NCBI RefSeq assembly: GCF_030055635.1
Contig: NZ_JASFYM010000016.1
Location: 1 to 47,313, forward strand
Origin: Methanothrix sp.
Lineage (GTDB): Archaea; Halobacteriota; Methanosarcinia; Methanotrichales; Methanotrichaceae
Length of the DNA: 47,313 bases
Reading direction: 5' to 3'
The notes below the pieces were generated by a model, which was not told the origin of the DNA, ran no database searches, and worked only from the letters and a program-made list of their open reading frames with translations. Within the stretch, counting starts at the first letter, position 1. The number at the start of each line of letters is the position of its first letter. Position numbers and translations under genes: made by a program. Below are positions 36,213 through 47,313 of the stretch, piece after piece.

Positions 36213-36887
36213 ATGAAGAGCGATAAGATGCGTGGTGATATGCATCGGGTTGAGATCATCGCGAAGGGGGACGTCCAGAGGGTCGGATACCGGGATGCCG
36301 TTCAGAGCATAGCCAGGAGGCTCGGTATTTCCGGCACCGTCCAGAACGTGGAACCTTATGATGTCAGGATCATCGCCGAGGGAGAGGAGGCTGCGCTGAA
36401 GGAGTTCGTTCAGGCGATAAACATCCAGGAAAGGATGATCAGGGTTGAGGAGCTTGAGGTGAAATGGGGTGCAGCTACAGGCGAGTTCCAGTACTTCAGG
36501 ATCCTGAGAGGGGACTGGCAGGAGGAGCTCGGCGAGAGGTTCGATGTCGCGATAAGGCTTCTCCACAGGAGCGTCGAGCTGGGCGAGCAGAATCTGGCGG
36601 TGAGCAAGGAGGCTCTGGAAGTCGGCAAGGAGAACCTGTCAATAGGAAGGATGATGCTCGAGAAGCAAGACGCAATGCTCGAGAAGCAGGACCGCATGCT
36701 TGAGAAACAGGATCTGATGCTGGAGAAACAGGATCGCATGCTCGAGAAGCAGGACGAGACGATCGAGGAGCTCCGGGGAGTGAGATCCGATCTCAAGGAG
36801 CACATGGAGAGGAGGTTCGCCCGGATCGAGGAGGAGATCGCTGAGATCAAGAGGGCGATAAGGGAGCTCGGAGGCAGCTGCGTCTAG
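36213..36887 (+). CDS. Acylphosphatase domain fused to coiled coil
   Basis: A 224-residue protein. Residues about 10-100 form an acylphosphatase domain: GDVQRVGYRDAVQSIARRLG holds the phosphate loop and arginine, and SGTVQNVEPYDVRII the asparagine segment. Next comes a long helical part. Residues about 149-183 are five heptads of LEKQDxM type encoded by a 21-bp repeat, a coiled coil probably used for oligomerisation. Free acylphosphatases are about 90 residues, so the tail is extra. The start is ATG 36213 or 36240 (GGTGAT before the second). Its partner is unknown. Confidence 0.8.
   Translation: MKSDKMRGDMHRVEIIAKGDVQRVGYRDAVQSIARRLGISGTVQNVEPYDVRIIAEGEEAALKEFVQAINIQERMIRVEELEVKWGAATGEFQYFRILRGDWQEELGERFDVAIRLLHRSVELGEQNLAVSKEALEVGKENLSIGRMMLEKQDAMLEKQDRMLEKQDLMLEKQDRMLEKQDETIEELRGVRSDLKEHMERRFARIEEEIAEIKRAIRELGGSCV
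36657..36761 (+). repeat. Five tandem 21-bp repeats inside the coiled coil
   Basis: Each unit encodes LEKQDxM (the last is LEKQDET). Silent differences (CTCGAG, CTTGAG, CTGGAG; CAAGAC, CAGGAC, CAGGAT) show that the repeat is not brand new. Copy number may vary between strains. Confidence 0.85.
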
Positions 36888-37408: not shown

Positions 37409-38752
37409 ATGATAGGAATGCTGGAATGGAATACGACGGTGAGATGGTTCAGGGAAACTGCAAGATCGATGCTGCCCAAAGGGCGGTTCGCCCGTGGTGT
37501 GACTGTGCTTGCCGGAGGCGCAGCACTCGGACAGGCTATCAATGTTATGGTATTTCCTGTTCTCACCCGGCTTTACTCTCCAGAGGATTTTGGAATTTTT
37601 GGCGTTTTTTCATCGATACTTGCGATAGCAATTGTAGTTGCCTCTCTGCGATATGAGTATGCCATTATACTTCCAGAAGACGATAGGAAAGCTGCAAACG
37701 TCATGACTCTTTGTTTTTTTATATTGATCGGCACAACCCTATGCTCTTGGTCTCTCCTGCAAATGTTGAGAGATCAAATTGTCACATGGACAAATACCCC
37801 AGGACTCGGGCAATACTTGTGGCTGATTCCCGTGGGGATGCTAGGAGCTGGGGCATACCAGATCCTGAACTACTGGACCGTTCGGAAGAGAGACTTTGTG
37901 CGCATCGGTAGAACTCGACTAACTCGTGGAGTGGGGCGTGCACTCTTCCAGGTTGGCCTGGGTTTTTCAGCCTCTGGCCCGCTGGGTCTCTTAGTGGGCC
38001 AGGTGGCAGGTGAGTGCGTTGGAAGCGCATCTCTCGCCTCTGCTGCCCTGAACAGAGATCGCGTAGTTCTTGGAGCCGTCAGCTTGGATGGGATACGCGA
38101 GGCCATAGCAAGATACCGGCGATTTCCAATCTTCTCAGGCACAGCTGATCTCATAGATACCCTTGGTCTCAATGCGCCTCAGATTCTCTTTGCGGCATTT
38201 TATGGGGCCGATGTAGCTGGCTGGTTCGCTTTGGGGCAGCGTGTGATCGCAGCTCCCTTAAATATCGTGGTGGACTCGGTGTCTCAGGTTTACTTCGGAG
38301 AGGCTGCACGGCTCCCACGGGATGATCACAGATCTATGAGGCGGCTATTCCTCAAGCTGACCGGCCGGCTGGCGTTGATGGGAGCGATTCCTGTGGCCTT
38401 GATCTGCGCATTGGCGCCCTGGTTTTTTGCTGTCGTCTTCGGGCAGAGCTGGGAGACAGCAGGAAGGTATGTGCAGATACTGGGGGTGATGTTTGCAGTC
38501 CGTTTTGCTGTAGTTCCACTGCAGCACACACTTAATATACTCGAACGGCAGGATCTCTATTTTGCTTGGGATAGTGCGAGGCTAGTTATGGTAGTAGGTG
38601 CAATGCTCACAGCAAATGCTATGGGATTCTCGCATATCGGGGCGGTTGCAGCGTACAGCGTGGCGATGTCGGCCGCGTATGTTCTTTTCTGGCTTATCGG
38701 CTGGAATGCATTGACTGCGAAGAGGGGGATTCAAGAATCAAAAGAGATATAA
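37409..38752 (+). CDS. Polysaccharide flippase (Wzx/MATE-like)
   Basis: A 447-residue membrane protein with about 12 hydrophobic segments. GVTVLAGGAALGQAINVMVF and LTRLYSPEDFGIFGVFSSIL are typical of oligosaccharide flippases, as is YRRFPIFSGTADLIDTLG in the middle. It would move lipid-linked glycan units to the outer face of the membrane. It starts ATG 12 bp after the truncated dehydrogenase. The next gene is the polymerase. Base composition becomes lower in GC inside this gene. Confidence 0.88.
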   Translation: MIGMLEWNTTVRWFRETARSMLPKGRFARGVTVLAGGAALGQAINVMVFPVLTRLYSPEDFGIFGVFSSILAIAIVVASLRYEYAIILPEDDRKAANVMTLCFFILIGTTLCSWSLLQMLRDQIVTWTNTPGLGQYLWLIPVGMLGAGAYQILNYWTVRKRDFVRIGRTRLTRGVGRALFQVGLGFSASGPLGLLVGQVAGECVGSASLASAALNRDRVVLGAVSLDGIREAIARYRRFPIFSGTADLIDTLGLNAPQILFAAFYGADVAGWFALGQRVIAAPLNIVVDSVSQVYFGEAARLPRDDHRSMRRLFLKLTGRLALMGAIPVALICALAPWFFAVVFGQSWETAGRYVQILGVMFAVRFAVVPLQHTLNILERQDLYFAWDSARLVMVVGAMLTANAMGFSHIGAVAAYSVAMSAAYVLFWLIGWNALTAKRGIQESKEI

Positions 38753-38808: not shown

Positions 38809-40119
38809 ATGATGGCATTTTTTTTCCGCGTTATGCTGGATCTATTGTATTATAGTTACGTGACACAAACATATGAAAGCGAGTTTCCACTTTATGCAAA
38901 CAGCATGCTTCGGTTAGCCGAATCATATGCTATTGCATTTTTATTGGCACTTATGGTCGCTGTATCGCTATATCATAATTGGAGACCGAGTGGCATCGTC
39001 GTAGTTTTGTACTTAGTCGTAGTTATGCTACCACTAACCTCTTTGTATGGGCTGGCAGATGCGCCTGCAACTTTTGTATATGAAGCATCTGTAAGCTTTG
39101 TCATGCTTTTAGTTACTATTGAACTACTGCCCAAGGTGAGACTGCCACGTCCCGGGCGTGATCTTCTCTTTTTGGGTTTGACTGCAATAATTGGATTATC
39201 CGCTTATGTATATGGCTGGCTGGCGCTAACTGGGGGCGCTGAAAGGCTGAGCTTCGATTTTAGTTCAGTATACGAAGTTCGTGCTGAGTATGTCCAAACA
39301 CGAGGGCCGCTGATGGGATATTTTGTTCCATGGCAGGCAAATATCGTCAACGTAATGCTACTCTGCTATGCATTGTATAAGAAAAATTATTGGCTGCTCA
39401 GTTTGGCTTTGGTATTGCAATCGATGTTATTCGGTATGACAGGCCATAAGTCATTCTTCCTTGCTCCGTTACTCGCAAGTGGAGTCTATTTCATCTGGAA
39501 AAGGAAAAATGCGATCTCGTATATTTTTTTGGGAGCCTCTTTAACGATGTTGGCCTCGTATGCGTATTTTGGGTTGAGTGGGAATGAGCTTATACCATCG
39601 ATTTTTATTCGTCGTTTATTCTTTGTTCCAGCATCGCTTCATATAGTCTACTATGACTTTTTCTCGCAACCTAGCCACCCTTTTTACATGCTGTCCGATT
39701 CGGTCCTGAGATACTTCATCAAAAATCCTTATGGCGTTCATATGCCACAGGTGATTGCTTTCACATATTGGCATAGAGAGTTCTGGCCCGACGTGGGGTA
39801 TCTTGGGGATGCCTATGGAAATTTTGGATTCTTAGGAATGGTTTTTTTTTCGGTAATACTCGGAGTCATTCTTCGTTTTATAGATAGTGTTGGGTCACGT
39901 TTACAATCTAACTTCGTAGCTGCAACAATTTCGATGCCGGCATACGCACTCACAGAATCTGCATTATTTACATCAATGCTCACGCATGGTTTTATCCTTT
40001 CAATGCTGATGTTATGGTTACTTCGCTCGATAGTTAAGCCAAGTGAGAATGAGGGAAATACTTGCACCAGTTCACTTTGCTGCAAATTTCGAGTAGACGA
40101 TCAACTTTTAATGAGATGA
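38809..40119 (+). CDS. Membrane polysaccharide polymerase (Wzy-like)
   Basis: A 436-residue protein with 10-12 hydrophobic helices, such as YAIAFLLALMVAVSLYHNW and NFGFLGMVFFSVILGVILRF. Polymerases of this kind are defined by topology rather than motif, so the call rests on the membrane layout and on its place beside a flippase. The large loop with SQPSHPFYMLSDSVLRYFIK may be the external active-site loop. Codon use is strongly AT-biased (TTT, TAT, ATA) compared with genes outside the island, suggesting recent transfer. Start ATG 38809 has no visible Shine-Dalgarno. It ends 1 bp before the next gene. Confidence 0.7.
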   Translation: MMAFFFRVMLDLLYYSYVTQTYESEFPLYANSMLRLAESYAIAFLLALMVAVSLYHNWRPSGIVVVLYLVVVMLPLTSLYGLADAPATFVYEASVSFVMLLVTIELLPKVRLPRPGRDLLFLGLTAIIGLSAYVYGWLALTGGAERLSFDFSSVYEVRAEYVQTRGPLMGYFVPWQANIVNVMLLCYALYKKNYWLLSLALVLQSMLFGMTGHKSFFLAPLLASGVYFIWKRKNAISYIFLGASLTMLASYAYFGLSGNELIPSIFIRRLFFVPASLHIVYYDFFSQPSHPFYMLSDSVLRYFIKNPYGVHMPQVIAFTYWHREFWPDVGYLGDAYGNFGFLGMVFFSVILGVILRFIDSVGSRLQSNFVAATISMPAYALTESALFTSMLTHGFILSMLMLWLLRSIVKPSENEGNTCTSSLCCKFRVDDQLLMR

Positions 40120-40120
40120 A

Positions 40121-41200
40121 ATGGATATGATTCAGCATCCACGTCTTTTAATCATCGCGGTGGTCCTGGGTCTGATGTTGTGTGCTGCTGCTTTATGGTT
40201 TCTGGGATTTACTAATGTCAGCACTCCATTTGATCAACTTGAGAACCGCCACATGGGGGATTATTTGAAGGAAGCAAAGCAGGTATACGATGAGCTCCTC
40301 AACTCCACAAAATCTGGGAACGCATTACTTTACAACAACAACCTGAATGGGCGAATCGTCTGGAACGAGGCATATTTCATGGAGTCGCTTCTCAATATGT
40401 ACGAGGCGACCTCCGATCCAAGGTATCTTGATATTTTTATTAAGCACGCAGATCACATTCTCAGCATCAGAGATGATCGGGCAGGACGACCAGATTATGC
40501 TGGAAGGCTTAGACCTGGCTGGCAGACAGGTTCCTATTACACGCTTGGCGTTCCGGTGATTATCCCCGATGAGGAGGGCAAACCTTCCCTGGAGGTCCAG
40601 GCGGTTCGCAGCGTCGGCAATGACCATACGGTGGTGGAGATACTCCCAGAGAAGGGCCAACAGTTCACACTTATAGTGCGAAACGACTTCCGCCGTATTG
40701 AGCCTATGGTGGTGATCTTCGAGAATCTCACTCTGGAAACTGCAGAGAAGGTGATTAATGCAAACCTAACACCATCTAGCTTGATACGTGTTCGTATCAT
40801 TGGAGATGCTCCACCTGTTCAGGGAGTCTGGCAGCTTAATGAAACTTACAGGATGGTCCTTCACGAGCTGCACACTCCAATTATCGGTACGCCCTTCCTG
40901 AGGTTTTCTGACCTTGTATTCAGGGAGAAGAACCTCTCATCATACAGGCAGAAAGCCGAGGAATATGTTCACGCATTTGAAGAGCCCCCAAGAGATTATG
41001 AGAGTTCCTGGCGGCAAGACCCTGGAGGTGGTTTCTTTATCTTCGAGCCTAGCGGCAAGTACTGGGCCAGCGGACTTGAGATACCCTACAATGCGCTTTC
41101 AGCAAATGGCCGCTTTTTCCTCTTGCTATACAGGACTTATACAGGACTACAGGAGATATGCAGTATCTCGAAAGAGCTAATGCTCTGGCCAGAAAGGTAA
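40121..41200 (+). pseudogene. N-terminal part of split C5-epimerase-like protein
   Basis: A 359-residue frame. One TM segment (LLIIAVVLGLMLCAAALWFL) leads to an alpha-helical repeat-type extracytoplasmic part with AYFMESLLNMYEATSDPRYLDIFIKHAD. It ends with a foreign tail after YRTYTG. Deleting one copy of the 11-bp tandem duplication (41127-41148) joins it in frame to the next ORF, giving LYRTTGDMQYLERANALARK and a protein of about 1,059 residues. It is therefore best read as the front of one broken gene. As it stands, this half would be anchored without the catalytic part. Confidence 0.7.
41127..41148 (+). repeat. 11-bp tandem duplication causing a frameshift
   Basis: TATACAGGACT occurs twice in direct succession (41127-41137 and 41138-41148). 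Eleven is not a multiple of three, and removing one copy restores one long reading frame across both epimerase halves. This looks like a slippage or short-duplication mutation, possibly reversible. Confidence 0.95.
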
Positions 41201-43311
41201 GATCCGGGATGATGTTTAATCCTGACGGAACCATGACAATGCCTTACTGGGTTAGAGATAGTTTACCATATACGGGTTGGAAAAACCGGGCGAGCAACCC
41301 TGTAAATGGGCTGTATCCAGAATGTTCTCCAGATCCGGCCACAGAGGACGTCTCGCATTTCACGCTGACCCTGCGATTCATGGTTGAGGCCTGGCAGATG
41401 GGTATTGTATTCGAGGATAAGGATCTCGAGGCGGTCGCCCGAACATTTGCGGAGCGTTTATGGAGGCCATCCTCGGTCATGGCAGACGAGCTGTGCGATC
41501 CGGACTGGCGTAAGGGATTTTATCTTGCCCACAATCTTGATGGTGAATCCCAAGCCTACGACTATGCAGCTGCAACCTTTGCACTGCTTTCGCGTTGGGA
41601 TGCGACGATATTGAGCCATGCATTGGAGGTGTACAGGTCTCGATATAGCGATATAAATTGTGTTGACAAAGACTATCTCTATGGCGAGGTGATGCTGGGG
41701 TGGAGCGTTCTGGCTGGAGGCGGTGAGCTTTGGATGGGCAAGCTACAGGAAAAGCCGCTTTATCCATTCACATTGCGCTTCAGTGCGGATCAGTATGTTA
41801 AGAGTTCACGCTTGATCTCTCTTGATGATAGCGGAGTTCCTGTGACCGATTATGGTTCTTTGCATGGTGGAGCAGGGAAGCGATATAATCCTACTTTTAT
41901 TTCGAACTATGCGCTCGCACTGTACCGAGATTTCCTGAGTACCAAGGATCCTTCATTGCTCGAGGCATTTAATAAGCAGGTGCATTGGCTACTTGAGCAC
42001 AAAACACAAAGGCAAAACAGAGGCATTGAGTTCTGGGTATGGGAGTTTGATTTTAATAATCCAACATTTGAAGCTAAAGCTCCATGGGTCTCAGCTCTTT
42101 CACAGGGAAGGGTGTTATCTGTGTTTCTGGCTGCATATGATCTTACAAATGATCCACATTACCTCCGTGCAGCAGAGTACACATTTCGTTCTTTCCTTGT
42201 TCCAGCATCTGAGGGAGGCGTCTCGACTTTCGAGAATAATGTGGCTTGGTACGAGGAGGTGGCAGATTATGATGCGCCATCTGCAAAAATCCTGAACGGG
42301 CATATCGCTGCAGTGCAAGGGTTATGGACATTTTGGAAATGGACTGGTCGAGAGGATGTAAAGCGATATCTTGACATTGGGATCGCAGCGGTGAAAAGAG
42401 ATATAGCCACCTACGACGCTGGGTTTCTTTCTTACTATAGCCAATATCCAACCAACCCACGAATATATGCCCCATCTGGAGACTATAACACGCTTCATGT
42501 CCACCAGCTTCTCTGGCTTTATGATGCTACCGAGGAATCCATATTCCTCAATTATGCTCTGCAGTTTGCCAGCTATGATTCACCAATGTGGAACATCACA
42601 ACCGCAGGTTCTACGGACCCGATCGGTCATGGTCCAGATAAGCTGTTTTTCCAGATGGGCAGCCAGTTCTGGTCACATAACGAGTTTCCAACCTGGGTGG
42701 TTTTAGACTTACACGAACTGAGGGAGATAGATGGAATAGCAGTATTTGGTTACACAAACAAATCTACGCCACGCAACCTTGAGGTTCTAGTCTCAAAGAA
42801 TGGAAAGGATTGGATTAAGATATTGGAGAGAGTCAATAACACAGAGATACAAATAATTGAAAGTTTCGAGCCTGTTTTAGCCCGTTTTGTTAAGCTTGTA
42901 ATCTTCAACGATAATGGCAATAATAATGTGGCACTAACTGGCTTTGCAGTTCTAGGAAATGCGAGAGGGTCCATAGCGGTCTCTGATTGGAAATCTTTTA
43001 GCTCGGGGAACTTGCCAGCTCATGTATTTGGCAAAGGATGGAATATTCCGGAGATTGGGTGGATTGTTGTATATTTGGGAGATCCGATTCCAAAAGATAT
43101 TTTCATCAAGCTCGAAGGTTGTTACCGCCAGTGTTGCTTTACACTTCTCGAGACCAGAGACCTTAAGGAATACAGGACAATCTCCCCTGATGTTTCCGCG
43201 ACAAAGGATGGGCTGAACATAGCGCTTCATAATTTGAATTCGAGCTATCTTAAGATCGTGTTTCATGGAGGCTGCAAGGGAGGAAAACTTACTGTGAGGG
43301 ATTTTGCATGA
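41158..43311 (+). CDS. D-glucuronyl C5-epimerase-like protein with discoidin domain (C-terminal part)
   Basis: A 717-residue frame. An (alpha/alpha)-barrel-type region runs to about residue 460. Its second half (SQGRVLSVFLAAYDLTNDPHY, EGGVSTFENN, ILNGHIAAVQGLWTFWKWTG, YDAGFLSYYSQYPTNPRIYA) matches the C-terminal domain of heparosan-type glucuronyl C5-epimerases. Residues about 485-600 look like an F5/8 type C (discoidin) sugar-binding domain, and a further beta-domain ends the protein. It would flip uronic acid units at C5 in an exported glycan. It overlaps the upstream half by 43 bp; the internal ATG at 41158 has no Shine-Dalgarno. It ends ATGA with the next start. Confidence 0.75.
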   Translation: MQYLERANALARKVRSGMMFNPDGTMTMPYWVRDSLPYTGWKNRASNPVNGLYPECSPDPATEDVSHFTLTLRFMVEAWQMGIVFEDKDLEAVARTFAERLWRPSSVMADELCDPDWRKGFYLAHNLDGESQAYDYAAATFALLSRWDATILSHALEVYRSRYSDINCVDKDYLYGEVMLGWSVLAGGGELWMGKLQEKPLYPFTLRFSADQYVKSSRLISLDDSGVPVTDYGSLHGGAGKRYNPTFISNYALALYRDFLSTKDPSLLEAFNKQVHWLLEHKTQRQNRGIEFWVWEFDFNNPTFEAKAPWVSALSQGRVLSVFLAAYDLTNDPHYLRAAEYTFRSFLVPASEGGVSTFENNVAWYEEVADYDAPSAKILNGHIAAVQGLWTFWKWTGREDVKRYLDIGIAAVKRDIATYDAGFLSYYSQYPTNPRIYAPSGDYNTLHVHQLLWLYDATEESIFLNYALQFASYDSPMWNITTAGSTDPIGHGPDKLFFQMGSQFWSHNEFPTWVVLDLHELREIDGIAVFGYTNKSTPRNLEVLVSKNGKDWIKILERVNNTEIQIIESFEPVLARFVKLVIFNDNGNNNVALTGFAVLGNARGSIAVSDWKSFSSGNLPAHVFGKGWNIPEIGWIVVYLGDPIPKDIFIKLEGCYRQCCFTLLETRDLKEYRTISPDVSATKDGLNIALHNLNSSYLKIVFHGGCKGGKLTVRDFA

Positions 43312-44447
43312 TTGCATATCAAATGTGTACGCGTTGTGTGATGGACACGACTGCGGAAGAGATCTCCTTTGATTCAAGCGGTATTTGCAGTTTCTGTCAT
43401 AGCTTCGACGAAAACGTGAAACCCGTTCTGGATCGCGCCGGTTCTACAGAAGGTAGGAGATTACTTAATCGGATTGTTGCCTCTATAAAGAACTCTGCCC
43501 ACGGAAAACCTTACGACTCCATCTTGGGCATAAGCGGTGGGACTGATAGCTCTTACCTAGCATATCTGGCCTCAGAGCTTGGATTGCGACCACTGCTAGT
43601 AAATGTCGATACTGGCTGGGACACGCCGGAGTCGAAGAGCAACGTTGAGAACCTTGTGAGCAAGCTTGGGTTCGATTTGGAGATCATCACTGTCGATTGG
43701 GATGAGATGCGCGATCTGCAGCTGGCCTTTTATAGGTCGTCTGTGAAGAACTGCGAGATCCCTCAAGACCATGCTTTTCTGGCAGCTCTCTATAAAAAGG
43801 CAGCCCAAGAAGACGTCCGTTATATACTAACTGGAGGAAATCTTGCAACCGAGTCAGTTCTTCCCCGATCTTGGGGCTACAATGCGGGTGATCTGCGCCA
43901 TCTTCTTGCAATTCACAGTCGCTTCGGCACCAGGCCTCTGAGGAAGTTTCCGACTCTGAGCTTCTGGCGGCGTTATTTGTACTATCCCTTTGTGCGCAGT
44001 ATCCGAGAGGTGAGGCTCCTCAACTATGTGCCATACAACAAAAATAAGGCAAAACGAATATTAGCTGAGAAGTTTGGTTGGCAGGACTACGGAGCCAAGC
44101 ATTACGAATCTGTCTTAACAAGATTTTTCCAGGGATACTATCTCCCAACCAAGTTTGGTATCGACAAACGAAAAGCGCATCTATCAAGTCTTATACTTTC
44201 AGGGCAAATAACACGGGAGCAGGCACTGGAGGAGTTAAAGAAACCACCGTATCCTAATGAGGAGCTGCTCCAGAAGGATAAGACGTATATCGCGGAACGT
44301 CTTGGCCTATCCCTCTCAGAATGGGAGGAGATTCTAGCTCTCCCCCCAAGACAGCACGAGGATTTTCCTTCATCCAAATTGCTGTTTGCATTTAAAGATG
44401 GACTGGTGAAAGCAACCGGTATCAGACGGAGGCGTTACAGGTTATAA
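43308..44447 (+). CDS. N-acetyl sugar amidotransferase (WbpG/PseA-like)
   Basis: A 379-residue PP-loop ATPase. CTRCVMDTT with CSFC forms the N-terminal zinc site, and SGGTDSSYLAYLA is the PP-loop. LTGGNLATESVLPRSWGYN is the conserved middle. Such enzymes add ammonia to a UDP-N-acetylsugar (making the acetamidino or amidine group, as in LPS O-antigens or in legionaminic/pseudaminic acid). The usual HisH/HisF-like glutaminase partners are not in the window. The start ATG overlaps the epimerase stop by 4 bp. Confidence 0.85.
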   Translation: MIAYQMCTRCVMDTTAEEISFDSSGICSFCHSFDENVKPVLDRAGSTEGRRLLNRIVASIKNSAHGKPYDSILGISGGTDSSYLAYLASELGLRPLLVNVDTGWDTPESKSNVENLVSKLGFDLEIITVDWDEMRDLQLAFYRSSVKNCEIPQDHAFLAALYKKAAQEDVRYILTGGNLATESVLPRSWGYNAGDLRHLLAIHSRFGTRPLRKFPTLSFWRRYLYYPFVRSIREVRLLNYVPYNKNKAKRILAEKFGWQDYGAKHYESVLTRFFQGYYLPTKFGIDKRKAHLSSLILSGQITREQALEELKKPPYPNEELLQKDKTYIAERLGLSLSEWEEILALPPRQHEDFPSSKLLFAFKDGLVKATGIRRRRYRL

Positions 44448-44467
44448 TGCTGCATGGACGTGACCCC

Positions 44468-45583
44468 ATGAAGAAGGTTGTCCATCTCACCACCGTCCAC
44501 CCCTCCTTCGACACCCGCATCTTCCACAAGGAGTGCAGGACTCTGGCCAGCGCAGGCTATGACGTCTCCCTGATAGTGCAGCATGATCGTAACGAGGTCC
44601 TTGATGGAATAAGGATAATAGCCCTGCCAAGGCCCAGGAACCGCCTCCACCGCATCCTGGGGCTCACCTGGCAGGCATTCAGACTTGCGATTCGCCAGCA
44701 AGCAGACCTCTATCACTTCCACGACCCGGAGCTACTTCCGGTGGGTGTCATGCTCAAGCTGTTTACACACGCGAAGGTCATCTACGACGTCCACGAGGAC
44801 GTGCCCCAGCAGATACTCACCAAGCACTGGATCGCCGCGCCCCTCAGGCGCCCGCTCTCAATGGCTTTCAACATCGCTGAGAAGCTCATGGCTAGAGCGC
44901 TAGATACAGTGGTCGTAGCCACTGAGGGGATAGCCGAGAAGTTCGAGCGGCTGGATCCAGTTGTGATACACAATTACCCGGATCTGAGGATGCTGCCAAT
45001 CACCCCGAGAATATCAAAAGAAGAGAAAGATAATGTTTTGGTCTATGTGGGGGGAATTAGCCGACTTCGAGGAGTAATTGATTTGATTCGAGCTCTAGAG
45101 ATCTTGGATTCATCATGGAACGTGCGCTTGGACCTTATCGGGCGGTTTGAGCCCCCCACCCTTGAGAGGGAGCTTCAGATGATGCCTGGATATAGGCGTG
45201 TGAGCTTCCTTGGATGGCTTCAACCGAAAAGGGTTTACGAGCATTTGCACAAATCACATATAGGTCTTGTATGTCTCCATCCTGAACCCAGATACGTTTT
45301 AAGCCTCCCTGTCAAGCTCTTCGAGTACATGGCCGCTGGACTTCCAGTGATCGCCTCGAACTTTCCTCTATGGAGGCAGATCATCGAGGGGGCCCGCTGT
45401 GGAATCACTGTCGATCCGCTGAAACCCGGAGAGATAGCAGAGGCGATTGAGTACCTGATAACACACCCTGAGGAGGCGCGAGTGATGGGCGAGAACGGCC
45501 AGCGCGCTGTGGTGGAAAGATATAACTGGGAAAATGAGGGGAAGAAGCTTATCAGACTGTATGAGGAGCTTTTGAGACAATGA
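44468..45583 (+). CDS. Glycosyltransferase family 4 (GT4)
   Basis: A 371-residue GT-B enzyme. MKKVVHLTTVHPSFDTRIFH starts the N-terminal Rossmann half (substrate side). YVGGISRLRGVIDLIRALEI and LPVKLFEYMAAGLPVIASNF form the C-terminal nucleotide-sugar half, with the E-x7-E type segment around KLFEYMAAG. It adds a sugar to the growing lipid-linked unit. I chose the ATG at 44468; one at 44447 overlaps the previous stop by one base. Its GC content returns to the genome's usual level. Confidence 0.88.
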   Translation: MKKVVHLTTVHPSFDTRIFHKECRTLASAGYDVSLIVQHDRNEVLDGIRIIALPRPRNRLHRILGLTWQAFRLAIRQQADLYHFHDPELLPVGVMLKLFTHAKVIYDVHEDVPQQILTKHWIAAPLRRPLSMAFNIAEKLMARALDTVVVATEGIAEKFERLDPVVIHNYPDLRMLPITPRISKEEKDNVLVYVGGISRLRGVIDLIRALEILDSSWNVRLDLIGRFEPPTLERELQMMPGYRRVSFLGWLQPKRVYEHLHKSHIGLVCLHPEPRYVLSLPVKLFEYMAAGLPVIASNFPLWRQIIEGARCGITVDPLKPGEIAEAIEYLITHPEEARVMGENGQRAVVERYNWENEGKKLIRLYEELLRQ

Positions 45584-46818
45584 ACATCTGGATCTTCAAC
45601 GAGAACGCCTACTCACCTGACCTTCCCGGAGGCACCAGGCACTACGATCTGAGCAGAGAGCTGGTCAGGCGCGGGCACAGTGTGAGCATTTTCGCAACAA
45701 GCTTCCACCATCATATGCATAAGGAGGTCCGTCTGCAGCCGGGTGAGGACTGGAGGATCGAGGAGTTCGAGGGCGTGCGTTTCGTCTGGATCCGCACACC
45801 TCCATACCAGCGGAACGACTGGCGCAGGGTGAGAAACATGGTTGCGTTCATGCTCCGATCCTGGCGGCTGGGGGAGAGGATCTCCAGGATCGCGCCGGAG
45901 GTGGGAACGCCTGATGTGATCATAGGCTCCTCTCCACATCTTCTGAACCCCCTTGCAGCATGGATGGTTGCGAGGCGCTTCCGAGTGCCCTTTGTGATGG
46001 AGGTTCGAGACCTGTGGCCGCAGACGATCATCGATATGGGCGTCATGGGCCCCAGCCATCCGATTATAAAAGCTCTCCAGGTACTGGAGCGGTTTCTGTA
46101 CCATAGGGCCACCCGCATAATCACCCTGCTGCCAATGTCTCACGAATACATCACAGCCTGCGGGATCTCGCGCGACAAAATTATATGGATCCCGAATGGA
46201 GTGGATCTATCCCGCTTCAGCAGAGCTTCAACGAAACCAGCGAACCACGATGGATTCCAGGTGATGTACCTCGGTGCGCACGGCCAGGCCAATGCTCTCG
46301 ATGTGCTGCTCGATGCGGCAAGGATTATCCAGGAGAGAGGCCTCAGTGAGATACGCTTTGTCCTCATGGGGGATGGCCCGGAGAAGCCCAGGCTGATCAA
46401 GATGGCAGAAGAGCTTGGGCTTGAGAATGTGGAGTTCAGGAATCCTGTGCCGAAAAGCAAGGTACCAGATGTTCTTAGTGAAGCTGATGCCTTTTTGTTT
46501 AACTTGGAAGACGTTGCAGTTTTCAGATACGGCATCAGCCCCAACAAGCTCTTTGACTTCATGGCGGTTGGCAATCCTGTGATCTCCTCCGTGCAGGCGC
46601 CGGCAAACCCCGTGGATGCAGCACACTGCGGGTTCACCATACAGCCGAGGGATCCGGAAGCAATGGCTGAGGCGATCATAAGGCTCTATAGCATGCCTCA
46701 GGATGCACGAGAGGAGATGGGCCGCGCGGGGCGGGACTACGTGGAAAAGCATCATGACATCGCCAGGCTCGCAGAACGACTTGAAGACACGCTGGCTCAA
46801 ATCCTGAGCGGGCCTTGA
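45580..46818 (+). CDS. Glycosyltransferase family 4, WbuB-like
   Basis: A 412-residue GT-B enzyme similar in layout to WbuB (fucosaminyl/acetaminosugar transferase). The start MNIWIFNENAYSPDLPGGTR, the middle VMEVRDLWPQTIIDMGVM and YLGAHGQANALDVLLDAA, and SPNKLFDFMAVGNPVISSVQ in the C-half are family marks. It begins 4 bp before the previous gene ends (ATGA), so translation is coupled. It likely acts on an amino sugar, in line with the amidotransferase. Confidence 0.9.
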   Translation: MNIWIFNENAYSPDLPGGTRHYDLSRELVRRGHSVSIFATSFHHHMHKEVRLQPGEDWRIEEFEGVRFVWIRTPPYQRNDWRRVRNMVAFMLRSWRLGERISRIAPEVGTPDVIIGSSPHLLNPLAAWMVARRFRVPFVMEVRDLWPQTIIDMGVMGPSHPIIKALQVLERFLYHRATRIITLLPMSHEYITACGISRDKIIWIPNGVDLSRFSRASTKPANHDGFQVMYLGAHGQANALDVLLDAARIIQERGLSEIRFVLMGDGPEKPRLIKMAEELGLENVEFRNPVPKSKVPDVLSEADAFLFNLEDVAVFRYGISPNKLFDFMAVGNPVISSVQAPANPVDAAHCGFTIQPRDPEAMAEAIIRLYSMPQDAREEMGRAGRDYVEKHHDIARLAERLEDTLAQILSGP

Positions 46819-47189
46819 GATTTGCAGAAAGGGGGCCACACGCCTATCACCTCCCCGACGTCCGCCCCTGGCTCGCTCAGACGAGCGTCTTCGTGCTGCC
46901 GTCCTTTTACAGAGAGGGCGTGCCCCGCAGCACCCAGGAGGCGATGGCGATGGCCCGGCCCGTTATCACGACAGACGCCCCGGGATGCCGCGAGACCGTG
47001 ATCGATGGCGTTAACGGCTTCCTGGTGCCGCCCCGCGATGCCAGCGCCCTGGCGGATGCGATGGAGCGGTTCGTGCTGGAGCCGGAGCTGATAGAGCGGA
47101 TGGGCGCAGCCAGCCGCAGGATCGCCGAGGAGCGGTTCGATGTGCGGAGGATCAACAGAAGAATTATGGAGGCGATGGGTCTCGGATGA
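46815..47189 (+). pseudogene. Truncated GT4 glycosyltransferase (C-terminal part)
   Basis: Only the C-terminal 124 residues of a GT4 enzyme remain: DVRPWLAQTSVFVLPSFYRE, GVPRSTQEAMAMARPVITTD and GCRETVIDGVNGFLVPPRD. The N-terminal 230-250 residues are missing; the frame opens at a TTG that overlaps the end of the previous gene. A deletion has probably joined the two. It could be expressed as a fragment but cannot be active alone. Confidence 0.8.
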
Positions 47190-47250
47190 TAGAGAATAGC
47201 AGGGCGCAAACTCCAATCTTTGGAGTAAGCCCGTACGCAATATAGAAGGA
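47189..47250 (+). repeat. Hairpin repeat copy 4 (before tnpB)
   Basis: GATAGAGAATAGCAGGGCGC at 47189 onward, then a 6-bp hairpin ACTCCA-ATCTT-TGGAGT (47210-47226), then AAGCCCGTAC (47227-47236). It is about 80% identical to copy 2 over the first 32 bp. It lies directly before a tnpB-like start, which ties the whole repeat group to IS200/IS605-type elements. Confidence 0.65.
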
Positions 47251-47262
47251 GCAACGATCGAG

Positions 47263-47313
47263 ATGAGATCTGCTTACAGGTTCCGGTTGTATCCGACTGA
47301 GGCTCAGATCAAA
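47263..47313 (+). CDS. tnpB: TnpB-like (IS200/IS605, IS1341-type) protein, partial
   Basis: Only the first 17 codons are inside the window: MRSAYRFRLYPTEAQIK. This is the typical TnpB/OrfB N-terminus (YRFRLYPT). TnpB is an RNA-guided nuclease carried by such elements and may have no partner transposase. AGAAGGAG lies about 11 bp before the ATG. Whether it is intact cannot be seen. Confidence 0.75.
   Translation, partial: MRSAYRFRLYPTEAQIK

Follow-up and report, generated by a model that had tools for sequence, protein, structure and literature searches.

Probable inactivation of a single glycan-epimerase-like gene by an 11-bp tandem duplication in a Methanothrix glycan cluster

Two overlapping open reading frames in a glycan cluster of Methanothrix sp. 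raise a question: are they two genes, or a single gene broken by a short duplication, and if the latter, is the break an accident, an artefact or a switch? The DNA analysed here (the window) is the entire contig C16, 47,313 bp long, of a 1.76-Mb draft genome in 33 contigs that is rated 99.75% complete. A gene for methyl-coenzyme M reductase alpha marks the genome as that of a methanogenic archaeon. At 41127-41148 of the window lies the exact tandem array TATACAGGACTTATACAGGACT, which is matched once in the window and in none of 100 shuffles. It is made of two exact, abutting copies of TATACAGGACT on the forward strand, at 41127-41137 and 41138-41148, and the whole 1.76-Mb genome holds no occurrence of this 11-mer elsewhere, confirming the original prediction of an exact 11-bp tandem copy. 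The match between the copies covers exactly 11 bases and extends no further at either end. The duplication shifts the reading frame by -1, the extra 11 bases setting the upstream and the downstream ORF in different frames.

The upstream ORF (40121-41200, forward strand, 359 aa) has a hydrophobic segment near its N-terminus (residues 9-30, approximately) and the opening part of an N-terminal domain; past 41137 it is out of frame and it reaches a stop at 41200. The downstream ORF (41158-43311, forward strand, 717 aa as called) carries the rest of this domain, a C5-epimerase domain, an F5/8 type C domain and a further C-terminal part. Its frame is open from about 41080, and the two frames, which differ by -1, overlap over about 120 nt (41080-41200). 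Read with one copy of the 11-mer, the region becomes a single open frame of 1,059 residues that contains LYRTTGDMQYLERANALARK, just as had been proposed, and no other stop or frame break occurs across these 1,059 codons. Codon-usage log-odds, scored in 120-nt windows with values derived from genes nearby, point to the first frame wherever a window starts at or before 41060 and mostly to the second frame from 41120 onwards.

When the 1,059-residue protein is compared with 393 genomes of the phylum, one joint-spanning homologue is found, a continuous ORF of 589 aa in a genome (G210) that appears to be that of a haloarchaeon. The two proteins share 31% identity over query residues 75-503, a stretch that spans the joint at residue 339, and the local alignment is gap-free for about 40 residues ahead of the joint and for more than 50 residues past it. 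Likewise, with the letters of the window left unedited, residues 76-324 of the upstream ORF align to residues 123-384 of the homologue (E 3e-33) and residues 3-159 of the downstream ORF to residues 405-561 (E 3e-05), so that the two ORFs cover successive, non-overlapping stretches of a single protein. Because they lie in order on one protein that is ungapped at the joint, the reading of the two ORFs as one ancestral gene is well supported; because both match successive parts of that protein, the joint falls inside a domain and not at a natural boundary. The original prediction that one gene had been split by the duplication is supported by this continuous ORF, a single homologue across the joint being what it had named as support. 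The called ATG of the downstream ORF (41158) was probably no start in the ancestral gene but a codon in its interior. At this position the homologue has S, in TGDSSY, and not Met; an AGGAG stands just 2 nt upstream of the ATG, and the downstream frame offers no alternative start codon between 41080 and 41158.

What would the joined gene encode? Inspection of the sequence reveals, at the N-terminus of the upstream ORF, a hydrophobic stretch that resembles a membrane anchor. No family can be assigned with confidence to the N-terminal domain (about residues 75-503); its profile matches in PDB are weak and include GH76 and N-acylglucosamine/cellobiose 2-epimerases, which at most hints at an alpha/alpha-toroid fold. 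The D-glucuronyl C5-epimerase C-terminal domain, PF06662, lies at 42034-42570 (forward strand, E 4.6e-38) and scores 131.1 bits against a Pfam cut-off of 23.3. It is followed at 42625-42936 (forward strand; downstream ORF residues 490-593) by an F5/8 type C, galactose-binding-like, domain (E 3.8e-12), a region that also matches CBM32 in PDB. The earlier description of the gene as epimerase-like thus holds for the second ORF, whereas the break itself sits in the separate N-terminal domain. An AlphaFold model of the downstream ORF, made without an alignment, has a mean pLDDT of 38. We infer a membrane-anchored modular enzyme with a catalytic domain of the D-glucuronyl C5-epimerase superfamily, which is probably extracytoplasmic and whose substrate is likely the surface polysaccharide from the surrounding Wzx/Wzy-type cluster.

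Among known enzymes, the downstream ORF matches zebrafish and human Glce in PDB (4pw2, 6hzz; phmmer E 2.7e-14), the likeness lying in the C-terminal catalytic domain. For human Glce, PMC13308652 names E499, Y500, N510, Y560 and Y578 as catalytic. With these residue numbers placed by hand on the HMMER alignment, four of the five (E499, N510, Y560 and Y578) align with the same residue in the PF06662 domain, and Val stands at the position of Y500; several single-domain archaeal homologues have the same E, N and Tyr positions. Beyond this Val, the protein differs from Glce in having a different N-terminal domain and an added F5/8 type C domain. Halobacterium salinarum Agl32 is an archaeal D-glucuronyl C5-epimerase of N-glycosylation that is reported to lack the catalytic residues of Glce (PMC13308652). 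Like Agl32, the protein of the window is archaeal and is predicted to convert GlcA to IdoA. Since it shares most of the Glce residues on this alignment, and Agl32 by its published description lacks them, it appears to stand nearer to Glce than to Agl32. QBI80846.1 of the Pseudomonas aeruginosa phage vB_Pae_BR161a shares 39% identity with residues 203-550 of the downstream ORF, which comprise the epimerase domain and part of the F5/8 type C domain; it has no N-terminal domain. Such a 39%-identical protein, annotated as hypothetical, is carried by 15 P. aeruginosa phage records (vB_Pae_BR161a, L016:3893-5596). It would be surprising for a phage to carry a glycan epimerase.

The broken gene is embedded in a row of glycan genes, all on the forward strand. 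Upstream of it are a Wzx-type flippase (Polysacc_synt_3, 37409-38752) and a Wzy-like repeat-unit polymerase (38809-40119) that scores below curated cut-offs. Downstream follow a WbuX N-acetyl sugar amidotransferase (43308-44447; TIGR03573, 271 bits, above the cut-off), whose start codon shares bases with the stop codon of the broken gene, then a group 1 glycosyltransferase (44447-45583) and a GT4-like glycosyltransferase (45580-46818). No WbuY or WbuZ partners obviously adjoin the WbuX-type amidotransferase on the contig. Directly after the intact glycosyltransferase at 45580-46818 comes a C-terminal fragment of a group 1 glycosyltransferase (46815-47189), which has no N-terminal half of its own and whose match begins at profile position 67 of 142; this is a second degraded gene of the same cluster. 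The contig ends, at 47195-47313, in IS-like sequence that has nine near-full-length copies in the genome, itself included, at 88-100% identity. Several of the nine sit at contig ends, and the last codons of this one (MRSAYRFRLYPTEAQIK) resemble the start of an IS605-type TnpB.

Is this cluster shared with related methanogens? GC content is 43-52% at 38-45 kb as against 55-58% at 33-37 kb. None of the 49 other family genomes searched holds the epimerase gene, and WbuX is missing from the five other genomes of the genus, in one of which the flippase has just a distant relative (31%). Genome contigs searched with each ORF hold no close homologue of either; viral contigs, also searched with an alignment, hold none of the downstream ORF, and phages and plasmids none of the upstream ORF. 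The cluster is probably a species-specific glycan island that was acquired.

How, then, was the gene broken? We consider it fairly probable that one ancestral glycan-epimerase gene was recently inactivated by the 11-bp duplication, and that the duplication arose by an ordinary replication error. An exact tandem duplication within the N-terminal domain would recently have shifted the frame, and the frameshift would have abolished the gene's function in the strain or population that was sequenced. An ordinary replication error is the most likely origin of the extra copy; reversal, through loss of one copy, would in principle be possible yet infrequent. The ends of the repeat show no microhomology, and such an arrangement is not what slippage most typically leaves. 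That the break is recent, as had been suggested, is supported indirectly by the 1,059 codons free of any further stop or frame break, as a frame so clean implies that little time has elapsed or that selection is still acting.

Tandem repeats of this kind are scarce in the genome. A first-order Markov simulation of the window predicts, for units of 11-40 bp, 0.01 exact tandem pairs per 47-kb window. Real DNA exceeds this expectation: 600 kb of the same genome, about one third of it, scanned for exact tandem units of 9-80 bp, contain four pairs with a unit of at least 11 bp. Two have a 12-bp unit, of which one sits in-frame within a long ORF and the other at a site without a long open frame; those with units of 14 and 20 bp are both intergenic. 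No other exact tandem repeat that breaks the frame of a long ORF was found in these 600 kb, which leaves 41127-41148 as the sole one in about 650 kb, sample and window together. Elsewhere in the window, an imperfect 21-bp tandem repeat of about five copies, ATGCTCGAGAAGCAGGACGC, occupies 36654-36756 within an acylphosphatase/coiled-coil ORF (36213-36887).

The main rival to a replication error is an artefact of assembly or sequencing, in which the organism would have one copy and two contig ends sharing 11 bases would have been joined unmerged. An exact repeat without extension is what such a simple overlap would leave, and the gene is without any other lesion. Moreover, the genome is a 33-contig draft with runs of 97-100 N in the sampled stretches, probably scaffold gaps and some possibly masking, and its contigs end in IS-like repeats, a pattern expected from short reads; it is because of these gaps and repeat-bound contig ends that we regard an artefact as unlikely rather than negligible. 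Yet no N or other mark of a join stands at 41127-41148, the sequence is unique in the genome and gives an assembler no obvious cause to break there, and the 600-kb sample has no other frame-breaking tandem repeat within a gene.

Could the duplication instead act as a switch? If one and two copies alternated in the population, the enzyme would be turned on and off and the surface glycan changed. The 11-bp unit is not a multiple of 3, is present in two copies and is the sole lesion in an otherwise open frame of 1,059 codons; a surface-glycan gene with an exact tandem repeat and a reading frame otherwise intact would suit a switch. There is also a precedent, which is the nearest known case: as far as the accounts in PMC4022640 and PMC4243769 extend, tandem duplications in the pneumococcal capsule genes cap3A, cap8E (wchA) and tts are described as a cause of reversible capsule loss (Waite 2001, 2003). 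On those accounts, pneumococcus and the methanogen have in common that a tandem duplication breaks an ORF of polysaccharide biosynthesis and that reversal is possible in principle. The pneumococcal switching is, however, described as reversible in growing cultures, whereas the present case is a single sequence from a single archaeon, and its broken gene is a glycan-modifying, epimerase-like one, set against the capsule genes described in those accounts. The repeat has two copies only and is located mid-gene, away from the gene start, and comparable intragenic repeats, of which a genome with phase-variable genes usually, though not necessarily, has several, are absent from the 600-kb sample of the genome. 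A hairpin with a 6-bp stem, directly 3' of the repeat (41153-41169), could stall replication, but its region is no more stable than shuffles (z -0.86), and we weighed and dropped a replication-stalling hairpin on this ground. A phase-variable switch is thus improbable, and with two copies and no similar frame-breaking repeat within genes of the sample, the phase variation suggested in the original prediction goes unsupported. The fuller proposal of a reversible tandem-duplication switch of a methanogen surface-glycan epimerase, with cells in two glycan states, is a little harder still to credit.

Less can be said for decoding the gene as it stands. A ribosomal frameshift of -1 inside the overlap (41080-41200) would, duplication or not, yield the full protein lengthened by four residues, and the frame overlap of about 120 nt with its offset of -1 would allow it; but no slippery heptamer of the form X XXY YYZ lies between 41078 and 41198, and the homologue is a single ORF, which leaves this very improbable. 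To the same small degree might the two ORFs be separate functional genes: some epimerase-domain proteins lack the N-terminal domain, and in G210 the N-terminal domain is found without an epimerase domain, but the break lies inside the N-terminal domain and not between domains, and the second ORF has neither a conserved start nor a well-spaced ribosome site. A target-site duplication left by a departed transposon is scarcely credible, for although the genome has IS-like repeats, one of them about 6 kb off at the contig end, nothing of an element remains between the copies, a departing element seldom leaves both copies cleanly behind, and the nearby element looks, from its first residues, IS605/TnpB-like, a family that is not known to duplicate its target.

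If, as we favour, a replication error has broken one ancestral epimerase gene, what would change at the cell surface? The genes for the flippase, the polymerase-like protein and the two glycosyltransferases are open and look intact, and therefore an unmodified polymer is expected, for example with GlcA where IdoA would be, rather than a missing one. Thus the break, if real, would alter modification of the glycan and not its production. The proposal that the glycan itself is switched on and off becomes doubtful, because loss of an epimerase that acts at the polymer level would alter and not abolish it. Translation from the overlapping wbuX start may be lowered, and the separate C-terminal part could still yield a partial protein.

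For practical use, the annotation is to be corrected to one gene instead of two. Were both copy states to coexist, capsule switching in pneumococcus would have a counterpart in an archaeon, and the locus would offer a route to a varied cell surface, for instance against viruses. As it stands, it is one clear case of a methanogen glycan-island gene broken by a short tandem duplication.
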